The translations under genes and the position numbers were made by a program. 10,736 nt of DNA from Pseudomonadales bacterium. Its GTDB lineage: Bacteria; Pseudomonadota; Gammaproteobacteria; Pseudomonadales; Litorivicinaceae. The DNA is taken from assembly GCA_012269655.1 (NCBI GenBank), contig JAAXJV010000111.1, forward strand, positions 1-10,736, written 5' to 3'. Within the stretch, counting starts at the first letter, position 1. Every line of letters begins with the position of its first letter. Below are positions 3,189-9,514 of the stretch, piece after piece. The notes below the pieces were generated by a model. That model saw only the letters and a list, made by a program, of their open reading frames with translations. It searched no databases and was not told where the DNA came from.

Positions 3189-4709
3189 TCAGGCCTGCCG
3201 AGCTTGTTCAAACAGGCTGTCGGTGTAAAGCGAACCCAGCAACGCGGCAAGCCCTAGCGCCAACACCGGTACACCCGGCCATCCACCCAGGCTCAACAAA
3301 ATGCCAGCCGCGACCAGTAGACCGATCGCCATCAGGGATGTGGGCTTGTTGGGACGTGCCAGGGTTAAGAAGCTCAGCACCACCATGACACCCAGCAGAA
3401 GCGCATAAATCCAACTGGCTGAGGCGGCTGCCTGCACGGCCGCAAGGGCATCGCCCTCGAGCAGTCGAGTGGCCTGTGTCGGAGCCAAGTTGCTGCCCGC
3501 TGCCAACAGCGACGCCGAATGACTGTGCTCAAGCAGGCTTAATTGGGCGCTAACAAATTGTGCAATCGGGTGAATGCTGGCGAAAAACAGCGAGGCCGCC
3601 GCCACAGCAAACAGTACTTGCTTAATTTTTTCGGGATTGGCGTTTTGTCGAACGATGTCGATACCGACGGCCAACAGAATAATCATGCCCAGCACGACCA
3701 TTTGCCAAAAAGTATTCAGCTGAGCCAGCGTCAGGCCATTTGCAATCAGTTTAAGCAAAATCACGCCAAGGAAGGTGCCCAGCACCGAACCACGCCCACC
3801 AAACAGCGAGGTTCCGCCAATCACTACGGCGGCAATGGCGTCGAGCTCCCACATCTGCCCGTAATCGGACTTGGCGTAGGGGGCGCGCCCCAAAAACATC
3901 AGCGCACCCAGTGCTGCGGTCATGGAACACACCACGTACGCCAGGGTTTTATAGAGGCGCACGTCGATACCGGCTTGGCGTGAACCCTGTTCGTTCGAGC
4001 CGATCGCGTAGATGTAGCGGCCTAATTTGGTGTGCTTGACCACCAGACCCAGCACAATGAAAAACAAAATGAAGATCACGAGCGACATCTGGAAGGTGCG
4101 GAAATAGGCTACCCAGTTGGCGTCGACCCAACTGCCAAGTGGCATCAACCAATCCGGCAACGAGCCATCACGGAACGCCTGGCGAAGGGGCATGAAAGGG
4201 TTATAGCGACCAAAGAAATCAAAAACTGAATCCAGTTTAGGAGTCGCCTGCGCGCCGGTCGTTAGGTGGCCGGTGCCGCGCCAGATAGAGAGGCCTGCCA
4301 GGGTCACAATAAAAGCTGGCATGCCAAAGCGGGCAACCAGTGAGCCGTGAATCAGGCCAATGCCGAGGCCCAGTGCCATCCCAAATAAGATCGCAAGGAT
4401 GGGCGGGAATCCCCAGTACGAGGCCACATAGCCGACCAGTGCCGCGATCATGCCCATCACGGATCCGACCGATAGATCAATGCCCGCGGTCAAAATGACC
4501 AGCGTCATGCCGCCGGCAATCACACCCAGTGCGGCAGAGTTATTCAGAATGGTCATCAGGTTCGATGGGTGGAAAAATGGCTTTCCGTCCGTTACCAACT
4601 CAATGGCGATGGCCAGAATCACGACGGCCAATAGGGCGCCCGACCAATCTTTTTTGAAGTACCCGGCCAATAGGCGGGCGAACCTGTTATTTGACGTCGC
4701 TTCTGACAT
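3189..4709 (-). CDS. Sugar ABC transporter permease with C-terminal membrane extension (Frc/Rbs class)
   Basis: 506-aa inner-membrane permease of the carbohydrate ABC uptake type (ribose, xylose and fructose class). The first 355 residues hold the usual core: conserved LTAGIDLSVGS (73-83) after the second hydrophobic segment and the ATPase-contact region DAIAAVVIGGTSLFGGRG (290-307). About 150 residues follow with four more hydrophobic segments (about 366-383, 433-450, 458-475, 480-496) separated by an Ala-rich polar stretch; family members usually end near 320-390 residues. A hydrophilic insert (about 152-200) also lies mid-core. I choose the ATG at 4709 because GGAG lies 7 bases upstream; the in-frame GTG at 4712 would leave 4. 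It lies between the binding-protein gene, 104 bp upstream behind hairpins, and the coupled mutarotase gene. Role is firm; the sugar is not known. Confidence 0.93.
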   Translation of the reverse strand: MSEATSNNRFARLLAGYFKKDWSGALLAVVILAIAIELVTDGKPFFHPSNLMTILNNSAALGVIAGGMTLVILTAGIDLSVGSVMGMIAALVGYVASYWGFPPILAILFGMALGLGIGLIHGSLVARFGMPAFIVTLAGLSIWRGTGHLTTGAQATPKLDSVFDFFGRYNPFMPLRQAFRDGSLPDWLMPLGSWVDANWVAYFRTFQMSLVIFILFFIVLGLVVKHTKLGRYIYAIGSNEQGSRQAGIDVRLYKTLAYVVCSMTAALGALMFLGRAPYAKSDYGQMWELDAIAAVVIGGTSLFGGRGSVLGTFLGVILLKLIANGLTLAQLNTFWQMVVLGMIILLAVGIDIVRQNANPEKIKQVLFAVAAASLFFASIHPIAQFVSAQLSLLEHSHSASLLAAGSNLAPTQATRLLEGDALAAVQAAASASWIYALLLGVMVVLSFLTLARPNKPTSLMAIGLLVAAGILLSLGGWPGVPVLALGLAALLGSLYTDSLFEQARQA

Positions 4710-4750
4710 CACGCTACTCCGCGAGTGAATGTATTCGAATTAGGTGATGC

Positions 4751-4764
4751 GGCCCTTGCGGGCC
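4751..4764 (-). other. Small hairpin upstream of permease gene
   Basis: GGCCC-N4-GGGCC forms a 5-bp GC stem with a TTGC loop (GCAA on the transcript strand). It lies between the larger 4786-4808 hairpin and the permease start region, in the leader of the permease message. It may shield the processed 5' end or be neutral. Seen directly; its role is a guess. Confidence 0.45.
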
Positions 4765-4776
4765 AACATCGGGGGA

Positions 4777-4808
4777 GAAGAAAACAAGGCAGGCAAGGTG
4801 CCTGCCTT
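4777..4808 (-). terminator. Intercistronic hairpin, attenuator-like, between binding-protein and permease genes
   Basis: A perfect 9-bp inverted repeat, AAGGCAGGC / GCCTGCCTT, with a 5-nt loop (4786-4808), lies 8 bases past the binding-protein stop codon. On the transcript strand it is followed by GTTTTCTTC, a broken T-tract. This fits partial termination or a 3' exonuclease block, a common way to make much more binding protein than permease from one operon. Full termination is unlikely because no separate promoter for the permease is obvious in the 100-bp gap. Confidence 0.65.
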
Positions 4809-4816
4809 AGGCGGTA

Positions 4817-5749
4817 TTACATGCCGATTAGGGCTTTGTATTCCGCCGAGGTTTCAGGAGTGACGAGGAAGGTACCGGTGTCGATACGCTTGTCTACGAC
4901 CATGTTTCCTGCTGCTTTAACTGCGGTTTTGATGCCCTGGTAACCCATCTGGTACAGCATCTGAGCGGTGTCGACCTGAACCCAACCTTCGTCCATCGCA
5001 ACGATGGCGTCAGCTGCGCCGTCAAAACCGACCAATTTCACGTCACCGGCGCCGTAGCCTAGGTTTTCCAGAGCGGCTTTCGCTGCCATGGTGCCGCCGT
5101 CCCACGCGTTGACGACCATTTTCACGTCATCGTGGCTGTTCAGCAGTGCTTCAACGCCCGCCTGAGCTTCGTCAGAGTTCCACTTGGTGGGCACTTCTAG
5201 GATTTCGCTGTTCGGGCGAGTTTCTTTGAAGCCTTTCATAAAGCCGTCGCGACGCTCTTGGCCGGTTGAAGAAGCCTGGTCACCGGTGACGTAGAATACT
5301 TTGTCGCCGTCGGCTACCAGCTTGGCCGCTTCTTGACCTTGGATGACCGCGACCGCGTAGTTGTCAGTAGCGACGAATGAAGTGACTTCGGCACCGCTGA
5401 CGCCGGTGTCGATGGCAACGACCGGAATGCCGGCAGCCATGGCCGCGTCAACTGCAGGTGCAATACCTGAAGAGTCAACCGGAGCGACGCCGATCGCGTC
5501 AACGCCCTGTGCAGTTAGGTTTTCGAAAACTTCCAACTGGCTAGACAGGTCGCCTTGGAAAGCGGGGCCGACGGTAACCAGCGTCACGCCTTCTTCTTTG
5601 GCGGCGTCTGTCGCGCCCTGGTTAATCATGATCCAGCCCGCGTTGGTCGCAGACTTGGTGACATAACCAATAGTCATTGCAGATGCTGACAGAGTCATGC
5701 CAGCGGCGATTGCGCCAGCGATAGCTAGCTTAGAAAACGATTTAATCAT
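4817..5749 (-). CDS. Periplasmic sugar-binding protein of ABC transporter (Frc/Rbs-like)
   Basis: 310-aa substrate-binding protein of the periplasmic-binding-protein type 1 (ribose/galactose/fructose) family. A Sec signal peptide is clear: MIKSFSK, a hydrophobic core, then SASA, with probable cleavage after Ala24. The mature protein begins MTIGYVTKSATNAGW, a typical first strand and sugar-contact region. Later family features include GVDAIGVAPVDSSGIAPAVDAA and GIPVVAIDTGV (about 83-119), SSTGQERRDGF (about 160-170) and KLVGFDGAADAI (about 238-249). It captures the sugar in the periplasm and delivers it to the permease. GAGG lies 7 bases before the ATG and is part of a small GAGG-N3-CCTC inverted repeat. 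It is the first gene of a divergent unit facing the ATPase-ROK genes; the palindrome in between suggests control by that regulator. The sugar cannot be stated. Confidence 0.93.
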   Translation of the reverse strand: MIKSFSKLAIAGAIAAGMTLSASAMTIGYVTKSATNAGWIMINQGATDAAKEEGVTLVTVGPAFQGDLSSQLEVFENLTAQGVDAIGVAPVDSSGIAPAVDAAMAAGIPVVAIDTGVSGAEVTSFVATDNYAVAVIQGQEAAKLVADGDKVFYVTGDQASSTGQERRDGFMKGFKETRPNSEILEVPTKWNSDEAQAGVEALLNSHDDVKMVVNAWDGGTMAAKAALENLGYGAGDVKLVGFDGAADAIVAMDEGWVQVDTAQMLYQMGYQGIKTAVKAAGNMVVDKRIDTGTFLVTPETSAEYKALIGM

Positions 5750-5919
5750 GAGGTGTCCTCAACCTGTTTATTTTTATCTCGATCTTCGCATCGCATTTAC
5801 GACACTGATATCAAGGTGCAATAAACTTTGATGGCTTGTCAATAAATAAATTTATTTGATTTATTAATTATTTCTGAAGTAGCCTCTGGGCAATTCGAAA
5901 AATAATGCGTAGAGCTCAA
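5750..5919. promoter_or_regulatory. Divergent promoter region between binding-protein and ATPase-ROK units
   Basis: About 170 bp separate the two divergent translation starts. The centre is very AT-rich (5841-5875) against GC-richer flanks. On the - strand there is an exact TTGACA (5842-5837), but no good -10 at 16-18 bp from it. On the + strand TTGTCA (5836-5841) sits 18 bp before TTTATT (5860-5865), a weak sigma70-like pair. The 5844-5857 palindrome lies between these two + strand hexamers, where a bound repressor would block polymerase in both directions. Promoter presence is certain from gene layout; exact hexamers are tentative. Confidence 0.6.
5844..5857. promoter_or_regulatory. Perfect 14-bp AT palindrome, candidate ROK operator
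   Basis: AAATAAATTTATTT is perfectly self-complementary, with a centre of symmetry between 5850 and 5851. ROK regulators of the NagC/Mlc type bind AT-rich dyads containing TTATTT/AAATAA elements, and a ROK gene is in the adjacent + strand unit. TTATTT occurs in the palindrome and AATTATTT again at 5867-5874. Autoregulation and control of both units is therefore the simple reading. AT-rich palindromes also arise by chance in AT-rich promoters, so confidence is moderate. Confidence 0.5.
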
Positions 5920-6723
5920 ATGGATCACATCTTAAAGACTGAAAAACTCACCAAGCATTACGGGGGTGTGCACGCCCTGAATGACGCCGATTTCTTCTTG
6001 GAGCCCGGCGAGCATGTCGCGGTGGTGGGCGATAACGGCGCGGGTAAATCGACCTTTGTGCGCAATATCACGGGTGTGGAGCAGCCGACCTCTGGGCGTA
6101 TTGAGTTCTACGGTGAGACCGTTCAGTTTGATTCGCCACTGGATGCCCGTGAGACCGGGATCGAAACGGTGTACCAGAATTTGGCCTTGGCTGATCATCT
6201 GGATGTGCCTGCGAACATTTTTTTAGGCCGTGAGGATTGCATTGACCGGATTAAAATTCCGGGCACGAAATTCTCGCTTCCCTTGGGTCCGCTTTCATGG
6301 ATGAAGGCGGGTGCAATGGAACAGCATGCGATCGAGTTGCTGGCCAAAACCGGCGTTAAGATTCCGGATCTACGTGAATCCCTGGCCGGCATGTCAGGCG
6401 GTCAGCGCCAGTGTGTTGCGATTGCTCGAGCCGCCGGTTGGGGTAAAAAACTCATCATATTGGACGAGCCCACGGCCGCCTTGGGTATTCAAGAAACTAC
6501 CCGGGTCGAGGAGATCGTTCGAGGTCTGAAGGAGCAAGGTATTCCGGTCATTATCATCAGCCACAACCTGCGTCAGGTGTTTAACCTAGTGGATCGAATC
6601 TGGGTGTTTCGTCAGGGACGCATTGTGGGCAACCGATTGACCAGCGAGACCGAACCCAACGAAATCGTGTCGATGATTACGGGCCTCGATCAAGGGGTTC
6701 ATGAAAACGCGAGTTACATCTAA
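5920..6723 (+). CDS. Sugar ABC transporter ATP-binding protein, single domain (FrcA-like)
   Basis: 267-aa single-domain ABC ATPase energising sugar uptake. Motifs: Walker A GDNGAGKST (37-45), Q-loop YQN with Gln86, signature MSGGQ (158-162), Walker B LIILDEPT (178-185) and H-loop His215 (IIISHNL). Ribose-type systems usually use a double-domain ATPase of about 500 aa; a single domain matches the rhizobial fructose (FrcA) arrangement and implies a homodimer. I choose the ATG at 5920 because AGAG lies 5 bases upstream and the protein then begins MDHILKTEKL; the ATG at 5905 has no visible SD and would add five residues. The ROK gene follows 3 bases after the stop. It is divergent from the binding-protein and permease genes, so the transporter is split over two transcription units. 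Function is firm; the sugar is not. Confidence 0.93.
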   Translation: MDHILKTEKLTKHYGGVHALNDADFFLEPGEHVAVVGDNGAGKSTFVRNITGVEQPTSGRIEFYGETVQFDSPLDARETGIETVYQNLALADHLDVPANIFLGREDCIDRIKIPGTKFSLPLGPLSWMKAGAMEQHAIELLAKTGVKIPDLRESLAGMSGGQRQCVAIARAAGWGKKLIILDEPTAALGIQETTRVEEIVRGLKEQGIPVIIISHNLRQVFNLVDRIWVFRQGRIVGNRLTSETEPNEIVSMITGLDQGVHENASYI

Positions 6724-6726
6724 ACA

Positions 6727-7902
6727 ATGAATCGTCAGGCGGGTGCCAAACGCGGTTCGAATTTAGTCGGCGTTCGAGAATACAACGAGCGACTGATTCT
6801 TCAGACGGTTCGGATGCAGGGTGCGATTCCCAAAGCCCAGATCGCCCGTTTGACTGGCCTGACCGCGCAAACCGTATCGACGATCGTCAGTGAATTTGAA
6901 GCGGAAGGCCTGTTACGCCGGCTAAAACCTCAAAAGGGCAAAGTGGGTCAGCCTTCGGTGCCCTTTGAAATTAATCCTGACGGGGCCTTGTCGATTGGTG
7001 TGCACATTGGGCGTCGCTCGACTGAAATGATCCTGACCAATCTGACCGGACAGATCATTGTCCGGGCGCAAGAGGTCTATACCCACCCGGATCCGAATGC
7101 GATCGCGGCTTTTGTCGGTAAAACTCGTAAGGCTTTTGGTCGCCGCCAAGTCATGAAAACGACCCGGCTTATCGGGGTGGGTGTCTGTAAGCCGACAGGG
7201 ATGGATGGTTGGCAAGCCAAGTTAGGTGCGCCGGCTGAGACCATCAAGGCGTGGCGGGAAATCGACTTTCACCAACTGATTGATGAGCAACTGGGTGAGC
7301 CCGCGGTTTACGTCAATGATGCCTCTGCTGCTTGCGCAGCCGAACTCTTGTTCGGTCAAGGAGGCGCGCTTCCGAACCACCTGTATTTTTATTTAGGTTC
7401 GTTTATTGGTGGCGGCTTGGTGCTCAACGGGAATCTGTTTTCTGGTCCAACCGGCAACGCTGCCGCCCTGGCCTCACTGCCCATGCCTGGGAATCGTCAG
7501 CTGATCGACAAAGCCAGTTTGTTGCAGCTAGAGGAGCGTGTCGTTGCGATGGGTGCCGAACCCACGACCCTTTGGAAAAGTCCGGCGGCTTGGGATCAGT
7601 ACAGCGACGCCGTACAAGCCTGGATCGCCGAAGCAGCGCCCGCGATAGCTATGGCCGCTTTGTCAGGCGTGGCCTTGTTAGAGCTTGACGGCATCATCAT
7701 CGATGGCGCGGTACCTGAGCAGGTCCGAACCGATTTGGTTGAAGCGGTCAACGACTGTATTCATGCCATTAACCGTGAAGGTTTGGGCGTATTTGATTGC
7801 CGTTCGGGCCAATTGGCCAGTGACGCTCGTGCCCTAGGTAGCGCCGCCATGCCGTTGTTGGCCAGCTTCTCGCCCAATCACGAATCCTTGTTGAAGTCTT
7901 AA
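6727..7902 (+). CDS. ROK-family transcriptional regulator
   Basis: 391-aa regulator with an N-terminal winged helix-turn-helix (about 20-66; AIPKAQIARLTGLTAQTVSTI contains the HTH) fused to a ROK sugar-kinase-like domain. The kinase part looks inactive: the first phosphate-binding motif reads GVHIGRRST (91-99) instead of the usual GxDIGGT, and the region that normally carries GEIGH and the CxCGxxGC zinc site reads GPTGNAAALASL (240-251) with no cysteines. It probably binds the imported sugar or its phosphate and acts as a local repressor, as ROK proteins do beside Frc-type transporters in rhizobia. The gene starts 3 bases after the ATPase stop with no strong SD, suggesting translational coupling. 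A likely target is the AT palindrome in the divergent promoter. Regulator class is firm; ligand and sign of control are inferred. Confidence 0.9.
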   Translation: MNRQAGAKRGSNLVGVREYNERLILQTVRMQGAIPKAQIARLTGLTAQTVSTIVSEFEAEGLLRRLKPQKGKVGQPSVPFEINPDGALSIGVHIGRRSTEMILTNLTGQIIVRAQEVYTHPDPNAIAAFVGKTRKAFGRRQVMKTTRLIGVGVCKPTGMDGWQAKLGAPAETIKAWREIDFHQLIDEQLGEPAVYVNDASAACAAELLFGQGGALPNHLYFYLGSFIGGGLVLNGNLFSGPTGNAAALASLPMPGNRQLIDKASLLQLEERVVAMGAEPTTLWKSPAAWDQYSDAVQAWIAEAAPAIAMAALSGVALLELDGIIIDGAVPEQVRTDLVEAVNDCIHAINREGLGVFDCRSGQLASDARALGSAAMPLLASFSPNHESLLKS

Positions 7903-7939
7903 CTGCCTCATAGGTTGAAAAGCCGCCGCTAAAAACTCC

Positions 7940-7957
7940 GAGCGGGCTAACCCGCTC
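7940..7957 (+). terminator. Hairpin after ROK gene
   Basis: GAGCGGG-CTAA-CCCGCTC forms a perfect 7-bp GC-rich stem with a 4-nt loop, 37 bases after the ROK stop. It is followed by AACTTATCATTT, which is not a clean T-tract. It may be a first, weak terminator or an RNA 3' end stabiliser, backed up by the next hairpin. Confidence 0.5.
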
Positions 7958-7973
7958 AACTTATCATTTGGAG

Positions 7974-8009
7974 ACGGGCATTGGGCGGGAACGTTTAATG
8001 CCCGTTTTT
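7974..8009 (+). terminator. Rho-independent terminator of the ATPase-ROK unit, overlapping the convergent gene
   Basis: ACGGGCATT / AATGCCCGT is a perfect 9-bp inverted repeat with a 14-nt loop, followed on the + strand by TTTTT (8005-8009). The right arm lies inside the last codons and stop codon of the convergent - strand gene, so coding and terminator sequence are shared. On the - strand the stem is followed by CTCC, without a T-tract, so it terminates mainly + strand transcripts. Confidence 0.7.
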
Positions 8010-8588
8010 CATCATCCGTTCGTGGACTGCTTGCATGCCCCGTGCGGACATATCGCTGACTTCACCGGCGTGTTTTTGCAAAAGCGCTACGACCTCTGGG
8101 TTGGCCGAGGTCTGCGTGACCTTGACGCCAGTCGGCGTTGCAACGGTGGTCGTGTCGATCTGGTCATAGACCTCAAACAAGGCATCCAGCGTTGGTGACT
8201 GAATCATGACCTCTGGATTTCTTCCTGCTTCCAGACGGGCCACCATCATGGCTACGTGCCCAATGATCGCATCTCTCAGTGCAGGATCGTCAGATTCGGT
8301 CGTGGTCACAATGCCGTTAAACAGTGGCGAAACGCTCCGACGTATGCCCTGATGTTGCGTGAATATGGTTTTAAGGTCAGCGACTTCTTGCTCGGTGGTA
8401 TCACGCCCCTGTAACCCGGGCATATTCACTTCGTCGTGAACATGGTCTGCGCCGGCTCGACCATGACCGCCACCGTGATGAGCCGCATGCATTTCAGCAT
8501 AGGATCCATGGCCCTGGTGCATGGCATAAATGACGCCGCCTGCAGTCAGAAGACCAGCTCCTATTAATCCTAGGGCGATTTTTTTCAT
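7995..8588 (-). CDS. His-rich exported protein of unknown function, putative metal-linked
   Basis: 197-aa protein with a lipid-free Sec-type signal sequence (MKK then a hydrophobic stretch 4-22, cut near YA-MH). The mature N-terminus is rich in His, Gly and Met (about 24-51: H24, H27, H34, H37, H38, H42, H49, H51), a likely metal-binding tail. The rest is a predicted helical domain with MPGLQGRDTTEQEVADLK (56-73), NPEVMIQSPTLDALFEVYDQ (124-143) and VTQTSANPEVVALLQKHAGEVSDM (157-180), ending AVHERMMKNGH. I recall similar uncharacterised proteobacterial proteins with the QSPTLD and HAxEVSDM stretches but know no function. The ATG at 8588 fits a Lys-rich signal start; an in-frame GTG at 8597 exists. 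Its promoter looks like a CueR/MerR-type metal-responsive promoter, so a periplasmic copper or other metal role is inferred. Confidence 0.8.
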   Translation of the reverse strand: MKKIALGLIGAGLLTAGGVIYAMHQGHGSYAEMHAAHHGGGHGRAGADHVHDEVNMPGLQGRDTTEQEVADLKTIFTQHQGIRRSVSPLFNGIVTTTESDDPALRDAIIGHVAMMVARLEAGRNPEVMIQSPTLDALFEVYDQIDTTTVATPTGVKVTQTSANPEVVALLQKHAGEVSDMSARGMQAVHERMMKNGH

Positions 8589-8613
8589 TTTAAACACTCA
8601 TAAATTTCTAAAG

Positions 8614-8644
8614 AGTTTAAGCCTTTACCCTGGGGAAAGGTAAA
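8614..8644 (-). promoter_or_regulatory. MerR/CueR-like promoter-operator of the His-rich gene
   Basis: Reading the - strand: -35 TTTACC (8644-8639), a 19-bp spacer (8638-8620), then -10 TAAACT (8619-8614). A 19-bp spacer with an internal dyad is the hallmark of MerR-family activated promoters. The dyad here is CCTTT-N9-AAAGG, and a second overlapping one is CTTTACC-N9-GGTAAAG. The layout matches the E. coli copA promoter bound by CueR (TTGACC, CTTCC/GGAAG dyad, TAACCT) in hexamer positions, spacer length and dyad centre, 8 bases after the -35. The expected RNA start is near 8607, about 20 bases before the ATG at 8588. Pattern is seen directly; the regulator is inferred and not encoded in the window. 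Confidence 0.65.
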
Positions 8645-8752
8645 GCTCGCCCAGGCCATCGGTTTTGCCGGGTATTGTCCAGTAGACCGAGTTTTCGATT
8701 CAACTCCGGTGTTAGCCTCATACCAAATTTAGGCCGGCGAGGTGATCCCTAC

Positions 8753-9514
8753 ATGAAGTCTCACACATTTAGTGTTTCAATTTTTCTGGCCTTAGGTCTT
8801 GCCCTTACTCTCAGCTTATCGAACATAGCTTCGGCGGCGAAAGGCGGCAATGGTAAGGGTAAAGCAGGTGCAAATGGAAACTCAGCCGCGGCCAAACTCG
8901 ATAAGTTTAACCGGACTAGTGGCGATGCGGATTCATCGGATCAAAATAGTGAAGAAGTCGAATCGATTGATTCTGGAGTTAGGGCAAAAGGGTTACAGGC
9001 ACTAGAAAAGCTGGATCCCAGTGCAGGGCGAGGCAACAGTTACGAACAACGTTTGGCGGCCCGTCAGCGTTTCATTCAACGGTTTGATGAAAACGGTGAC
9101 GGTCAGGTGGATAAAATGGAAGTCACCAACCTCGCGACCATTAATTTTGATGAGTTGGATGAAGACTCAGATGCAAGTCTGTCGGCACAAGAACTACAGA
9201 ATTCGCTATCTGAGGAGTTGGCAGACAGCTTAGCAACCCGTTTCGCTAATTTGGACGTAAACAGCGATGGCGAAATTGGAGGCGGGGAATCATTTAATGT
9301 TCAAAATTTCCTAAAGCGAAAGGGTGCAGACAGTAATCAAGACGGAGTTATCTCTGAGCAAGAATACCTGGAACACAACTTGGGAGAATTAGCCTCTGAG
9401 GCACTGGCTCGCCTAGATTCTGATCAAAACGGTGAGGTGTCGTTCGAAGAGCTGCAAGCGCTCTACGTTGATAGCGTGGACGCAGAAATATCAGGCGAAA
9501 CGAAGGACAGTTAA
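8753..9514 (+). CDS. Exported calcium-binding protein with five EF-hand loops
   Basis: 253-aa exported protein. The Sec signal peptide runs from MKSHTF through a Leu/Ala-rich core to NIASAA, with probable cleavage near residue 28-29. A low-complexity Lys/Gly/Asn linker follows (30-48), then an acidic body. Five 12-residue EF-hand loops are visible: DENGDGQVDKME (112-123), DEDSDASLSAQE (136-147), DVNSDGEIGGGE (168-179), DSNQDGVISEQE (193-204) and DSDQNGEVSFEE (222-233); all keep Asp at 1, Asp/Asn at 3 and 5 (Ser-shifted in none) and Glu at 12, and the second lacks the usual Gly at 6. It probably binds calcium in the periplasm or outside; partner and role unknown. The start is set by a strong GAGGTGA 7 bases before the ATG; an upstream in-frame start would add an implausible 26 residues before the signal peptide. 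Confidence 0.88.
   Translation: MKSHTFSVSIFLALGLALTLSLSNIASAAKGGNGKGKAGANGNSAAAKLDKFNRTSGDADSSDQNSEEVESIDSGVRAKGLQALEKLDPSAGRGNSYEQRLAARQRFIQRFDENGDGQVDKMEVTNLATINFDELDEDSDASLSAQELQNSLSEELADSLATRFANLDVNSDGEIGGGESFNVQNFLKRKGADSNQDGVISEQEYLEHNLGELASEALARLDSDQNGEVSFEELQALYVDSVDAEISGETKDS

Follow-up and report, generated by a model that had tools for sequence, protein, structure and literature searches.

A CueR-type promoter upstream of a gene for a candidate periplasmic copper-binding protein of an unnamed family

Among the copper proteins of bacteria, SilE/PcoE, CusF and CopK are periplasmic and rich in His or Met, and CueP is a periplasmic copper protein under the control of CueR. For the CueR protein of E. 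coli, a switching mechanism that operates through distortion of the promoter DNA is known. The E. coli CueR box reads ACCTTCC-N7-GGAAGGT and its H. influenzae counterpart ACCTTaA-N7-TaAAGGT, with both situated between the -35 and -10 elements (excerpts of PMC10187127), and in the E. coli copA promoter these elements are separated by a spacer of 19 bp (excerpts of PMC10187127 and PMC7911910).

Promoter and product of the 197-aa gene

The DNA analysed here, hereafter the window, is a stretch of 10,736 nucleotides from a Pseudomonadales bacterium of the Litorivicinaceae (contig JAAXJV010000111.1). Its minus strand carries a gene for a protein of 197 amino acids (7995..8588, stop codon included). 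Upstream of this gene, and on the same strand, the sequence reads as a -35 element, TTTACC (8639..8644), and a -10 element, TAAACT (8614..8619), with the CueR-type operator ACCTTTC-N7-TAAAGGC (8621..8641) placed inside the 19-bp spacer (8638-8620) in the geometry described in the excerpted parts of PMC10187127. An earlier note on this DNA had described the same two hexamers 19 bp apart on the minus strand, which we likewise read at 8644-8639 and 8619-8614, and a CCTTT-N9-AAAGG dyad centred between them, which is indeed present and matches the published geometry of the CueR box. In the 21-mer ACCTTTCCCCAGGGTAAAGGC (8641-8621), 8 of 10 pairs are self-complementary, and its half-sites, which lie 11 bp apart, agree with ACCTT-N11-AAGGT at 9 of 10 positions. 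The -10 element is weak. From this arrangement, transcription would be expected to start at approximately position 8607. A promoter scan of positions 7850-8800 returned no sigma-70 promoter with a spacer of 16-18 bp.

Dyads of this kind are not unusual in themselves: the 1.63-Mb genome contains 16 copies of ACCTT-N11-AAGG, compared with two of its reversed control. When the dyad is combined with both hexamers in the pattern TTKACYYT-N11-ARRGNTTWWA, allowing at most one mismatch, a single match is found genome-wide, and it falls at the window promoter. Because the reversed control of this pattern also matches once, frequency alone offers no proof, and the promoter sequence taken by itself is suggestive. 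A near twin of the dyad on another contig (C228) was discarded since it sits within an open reading frame.

The 197-aa protein scores below the cut-off of every Pfam and NCBIfam model, in agreement with the earlier description of a product without a named family, and there are 1103 homologues at E <= 0.001 (the best 120 of the 1103 are listed). The hydrophobic N-terminus (residues 1-22, 8523..8588), as judged from its residues, could be a signal peptide or a membrane anchor. Secretion of the product, as proposed in the earlier note, is likely, but the N-terminus can equally be read as an uncleaved anchor. It is followed by a His-rich tail (residues 23-52, 8433..8522) that is modelled with low confidence. 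The count of eight His within the first 28 mature residues, given in the earlier note, is obtained if the mature protein starts at residue 24; the number is seven if it begins at residue 22, 23 or 25.

AlphaFold2 returns a confident core, with 140 of 197 residues at pLDDT of at least 70, and values below 50 for the first 50 residues. This core consists of two consecutive helix-strand-strand-helix units, taken as repeats from the alignment, the model and the profile comparison: repeat 1 comprises residues 66-121 (8226..8393) with H111 and M115, and repeat 2 comprises residues 132-183 (8040..8195) with H173, E176 and M180. In a profile alignment of the two halves (E 2.1e-5 for this single comparison, probability 53%), H111 falls on H173, which suggests that the core arose by internal duplication. 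Beyond M180, the last helix carries M185, H189 and M192. Searches of the PDB yielded no convincing match by sequence, the best being a designed repeat protein at E 0.017, and no clear structural match by fold. The protein contains no cysteine and thus no CXXCH motif.

On the 3′ side of the gene lies a terminator-like hairpin (7938..7959, minus strand), a weak signal given that three such sites occur in the region compared with 1.1 expected in shuffled sequences, and its position suggests that the transcription unit may be monocistronic. Other genes of the window include a plus-strand gene (8753-9514) that is divergent from the 197-aa gene and encodes several EF hands behind a signal-like N-terminus. 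Positions 3189-7902 hold genes that by eye encode the permease, binding protein and ATPase of a sugar ABC transporter, together with a ROK-type regulator. Farther away, a plus-strand gene (1181-2143) encodes a metallochaperone-type GTPase that looks CobW-like by eye and contains a His-rich stretch, making it perhaps a second gene of the window with a role in metal handling.

CueR-type elements at orthologues and at cueR genes

Recurrence of the promoter was examined upstream of orthologous genes using patterns of increasing length, of which only CCTT-N11-AAGG was fixed before the orthologue sites had been seen; the T at the end and the longer, extended element described below were added afterwards, and these patterns are therefore not blind. 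Exact CCTT-N11-AAGG is found at the window and at one further locus (L043, in G877) among 57 loci, a set in which the window is counted twice. Four of 64 unique upstream regions (the window, G869, G877 and G816) match ACCTT-N11-AAGGT at 9 or 10 of 10 positions, compared with zero to two at 12 other gap lengths; at 8 of 10 positions there is no clear excess (10 of 64 regions versus 4-10 at other gaps). The extended element TTKACY-YTCC-N7-GGARGGTT-TAT, scored out of 21 and composed once several orthologue sites were known, reaches at least 17 in 7 of 67 upstream regions (G864, G873, G869, G825, G816, G865 and G877), compared with zero to three at eight other gaps and, in shuffled sequences, 0.05 on average. 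The window scores 16, a level attained by 8 of the 67 regions, compared with zero to five at the eight other gaps and 0.25 in shuffles. In four upstream regions the element is complete at 21 of 21, one of these (L085) being previously unread, and in the orthologue promoter of G877 the -10 element (TATGCA) is one base nearer.

Orthologues had been expected by the earlier note to share the 19-bp spacer and dyad, which proves correct for these 8 of 67 upstream regions, the window included, and fails for the other 59, mainly those of Rhodobacteraceae, in which the CueR-type box is missing. The link to CueR is thus lineage-specific. In a tree that includes the window and four of the seven holders of the element, these proteins are spread over both main branches. 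The family of G667 contributes 13 copies: six have the box directly upstream, two are linked to cueR (G856 and G750), and five have neither (G667, G832, G829, G852 and the second copy of G877).

In three loci, a cueR-type gene adjoins the orthologue or resides two genes away. The sensors encoded there are assigned to CueR by their best scores, which clearly exceed those for ZntR, CadR-PbrR and MerR: against the CueR model TIGR02044 they reach 155.4 bits (L017), 150.0 bits (L138) and 145.3 bits (L094), and the last value narrowly misses the cut-off of 147.4 bits. In L017 and L090, both from G856, cueR is divergent from a series comprising a DUF4396 gene, a c-type cytochrome gene and the orthologue, and TTGTAT-19-TATACG lies between cueR and the DUF4396 gene. 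In L138, which holds the second copy of G1050, cueR adjoins the orthologue in convergent orientation, and the box TTGACC-19-TATATC faces an operon encoding cytochromes and a multicopper oxidase. In L094 (G750), the orthologue and cueR diverge, and the intergenic region between them contains no recognisable box of the CueR type. At a further locus (L023), CopC and CopD genes are found near the orthologue.

The same element recurs in front of cueR itself. Within 150 bp upstream of cueR, it scores at least 17 at 10 of 15 cueR loci (G816, G856, G852, G864, G865, G1050, G829, G877, G825 and G869), compared with zero to two at eight other gaps. Only the loci of G856 and G1050 were known when the element was written, such that 8 of the 10 positives were previously unread. 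This result indicates that the element upstream of the orthologues and that upstream of cueR are one and the same, and six genomes (G825, G864, G865, G869, G877 and G816) carry it at both places. A genome-wide search of 23 genomes gave 26 pattern matches and 34 for the reversed control, and the evidence therefore resides in the location of the sites: six of the 26 are directly upstream of the orthologue (G000, the window's genome, G825, G864, G865, G869 and G873), six are just upstream of cueR (G825, G829, G864, G865, G877 and G1050), and 14 lie elsewhere. The CueR/MerR-type control put forward in the earlier note is supported by the seven other orthologues with such a promoter, by the linkage to cueR in three loci and by the element at 10 of 15 cueR loci.

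The five cueR loci at which the element does not reach 17 include those of both congeners of the window's organism (G001 and G002). Their cueR genes score 153.0 and 149.4 bits, above the cut-off, and lie beside a gene that by eye encodes a P-type ATPase. In G002, the region between the two genes contains a dyad of suitable type, TTGACCTTGACGTTAGGGCAGGGTCAA, that scores only 15 of 21 by the extended element; in G001, cueR directly follows the ATPase gene and no box precedes it (13 of 21). No cueR gene was found in the 78% complete assembly of the window's genome (G000). A MerR-type protein encoded on C230 was rejected as the regulator, with only 57.6 bits against CueR and neighbours that resemble fatty-acid oxidation genes by eye. 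Also set aside were the only two matches to the copper P-type ATPase model (C80 and C289), considered as copA for operator comparison; both fall below the cut-off and by eye resemble fragments of an assembly ATPase for cytochrome oxidase of the CcoI type.

Clustering of neighbouring genes across loci revealed no partner common to most of them, as only the gene itself and frames overlapping it extend beyond a few loci. Among members of the G667 family, a DUF4396-like gene is frequently the divergent neighbour of cueR (L172, L173, L175, L176, L180 and L181), with a cytochrome c or multicopper oxidase gene behind it in some cases; the assignment is confirmed by Pfam for L017 and made by eye for the other loci. 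From this arrangement, DUF4396 looks copper-linked. DUF4396 genes flank a metal-resistance cluster in work excerpted from PMC7760498. Genes resembling persulfide dioxygenase, YeeE/YedE or both, named by eye, recur at orthologue loci of unrelated genomes (L019, L083, L120, L122, L128 and L094).

Conserved candidate ligands and distribution of the family

Across 61 aligned sequences that are 43-93% identical to the window protein, H51, M56, H111, M115, H173, M185, H189 and M192 are invariant. A second alignment extends to distant homologues, down to 27% identity, and has 11 rows, the eleventh being cut by a contig end; H111, M115, H173, E176, M185 and M192 are retained in all 10 full-length rows. 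The composition of the tail differs among these proteins, as the stretch corresponding to residues 23-75 holds eight His and three Met in the window protein, one or two His and 13 Met in acidophiles, and no His and 6-8 Met in mycobacteria. Replacement of His by Met might be expected of a protein that binds Cu(I), Ag or Hg where acid protonates His, a reason that is inapplicable to the mycobacteria.

The family extends over several classes of Pseudomonadota, acidophiles and mycobacterial plasmids. Plasmid-borne relatives that are 27-34% identical to the window protein include copies in Acidithiobacillus ferrooxidans and Acidiphilium multivorum located near merA and a MerR-type gene. In two acidophile loci (L083, 5016-8432; L187, 4016-7432), the homologue, which has a Met-rich tail, comes last in a row of merA, a redoxin gene and a hypothetical gene, with the MerR-type gene on the opposite strand. 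Relatives on plasmids of Mycolicibacterium and Mycobacterium, in the same identity range, are near metal P-type ATPases and ArsR regulators, and that of Acidiphilium cryptum is carried by a 4.9-kb plasmid without annotated metal genes. A Neotabrizicola homologue (43% identical) lies inside an ars cluster, and a Spy/CpxP gene occurs near an Aminobacter homologue.

Among 95 relatives of the window's genome, including two members of the same genus and 22 members of the same family, there is no match at E <= 1e-5, which points to acquisition of the gene. In the tree, the closest neighbours of the window protein came from the database search. The nearest metagenomic homologues (P0002-P0009) are 67-93% identical to it. 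Matches were found in 6 of 398 genomes of a phylum-wide draw (window included), in 4 of 385 genomes drawn from the class of G400, in 12 of 61 genomes of the family of G667 (taken as Puniceispirillum, SAR116) and in 42 of 295 genomes of the family of G400 (taken as Rhodobacteraceae). The search of viral contigs yielded no relative. Copies in L041 (G825) and L047 (G829) are reported with in-frame stop codons within the matched stretch.

Proposed function, alternatives and known systems

We consider it probable that the 197-aa gene is activated by CueR in response to Cu(I) and that its product serves as a copper-binding buffer or chaperone in the periplasm. At low Cu(I), CueR bound to the dyad within the over-long 19-bp spacer would keep the promoter off, and CueR occupied by Cu(I), or by Ag or Au, would distort the DNA so as to align the -35 and -10 elements and turn the promoter on. 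The product would then be exported, to be released or to stay tethered to the inner membrane on its periplasmic side, where the flexible His-rich tail and the duplicated alpha-beta-beta-alpha domain, with its HVxxM, HAxE and GM..M motifs, could bind copper.

Control by CueR could be assigned correctly and the protein nonetheless not carry copper, acting instead as a helper with a redox or heme-binding role, or as a chaperone of the envelope, needed in a copper-damaged periplasm. The orthologue follows a c-type cytochrome gene in L017/L090 and has cytochrome c′ and other cytochromes nearby in L138, pairs of His and Met could ligate heme, and the Aminobacter homologue has a Spy/CpxP gene in its vicinity. 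We nevertheless judge this alternative unlikely, as every one of the 11 rows of the distant alignment has a tail with many His or Met, as expected for a metal binder, and the window protein lacks the cysteines of a CXXCH motif.

A role with another soft metal, under a different MerR-type sensor (of the ZntR, CadR/PbrR, GolS or MerR type), appears quite improbable. The operator anatomy is common to the MerR family, and MerR promoters also have 19-bp spacers (excerpts of PMC7911910); moreover, distant homologues occur near merA, in an ars cluster or near metal P-type ATPases, and the cueR loci of the congeners offer no close copy of the window box. Against this stand the sensors of L017, L094 and L138, whose best scores are as CueR, the element at two-thirds of the cueR loci (10 of 15), and the spacer of 20 bp in the zntA promoter controlled by ZntR (excerpts of PMC7911910). 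That the dyad and its spacing arose by chance, with expression from some other promoter, is very unlikely: the dyad's abundance in the genome, the weak -10 element, the many orthologues without a box and a window score that up to five regions reach at control gaps would all allow it, yet the dyad sits at promoter distance, relatives of the gene repeatedly bear CueR-type boxes, and no standard sigma-70 site is nearby.

Beyond the copper-buffer function of the window gene, we propose tentatively, at somewhat under even chances, that the unnamed family is a periplasmic soft-metal buffer, built on a duplicated alpha-beta-beta-alpha core, which several bacterioplankton lineages have recruited into the CueR regulon as a second arm that stands alone, with the His of the tail exchanged for Met where acid protonates His. 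A family of 1103 homologues would thereby gain a testable job in the copper defence of what are largely ocean bacteria, and the CueR regulons of some marine bacteria are suggested to have a member beyond the usual set of ATPase, oxidase and chaperone. Among the titles and abstracts returned by searches of one open-access library, none describes the family or names it as a CueR target.

The promoter resembles those of E. coli copA and H. influenzae copZA in its interrupted palindrome and, as in E. coli copA, its 19-bp spacer; it differs from them in a right half-site that ends in C and in its -10 sequence, TAAACT, and the gene that it precedes encodes neither an ATPase, a multicopper oxidase nor a cytoplasmic chaperone. 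The window protein would work in the manner of CueP, as an exported protein induced by copper through a MerR-type sensor and acting outside the cytoplasm, although the CueP model NF038094 is absent from its NCBIfam matches (E <= 1) and has none in its genome. His and Met are abundant in its tail or body, as in SilE/PcoE, CusF and CopK; unlike them, it carries its most conserved His and Met residues in a folded, duplicated alpha-beta-beta-alpha domain. The promoter is of a known kind, to which this protein family is a new addition.
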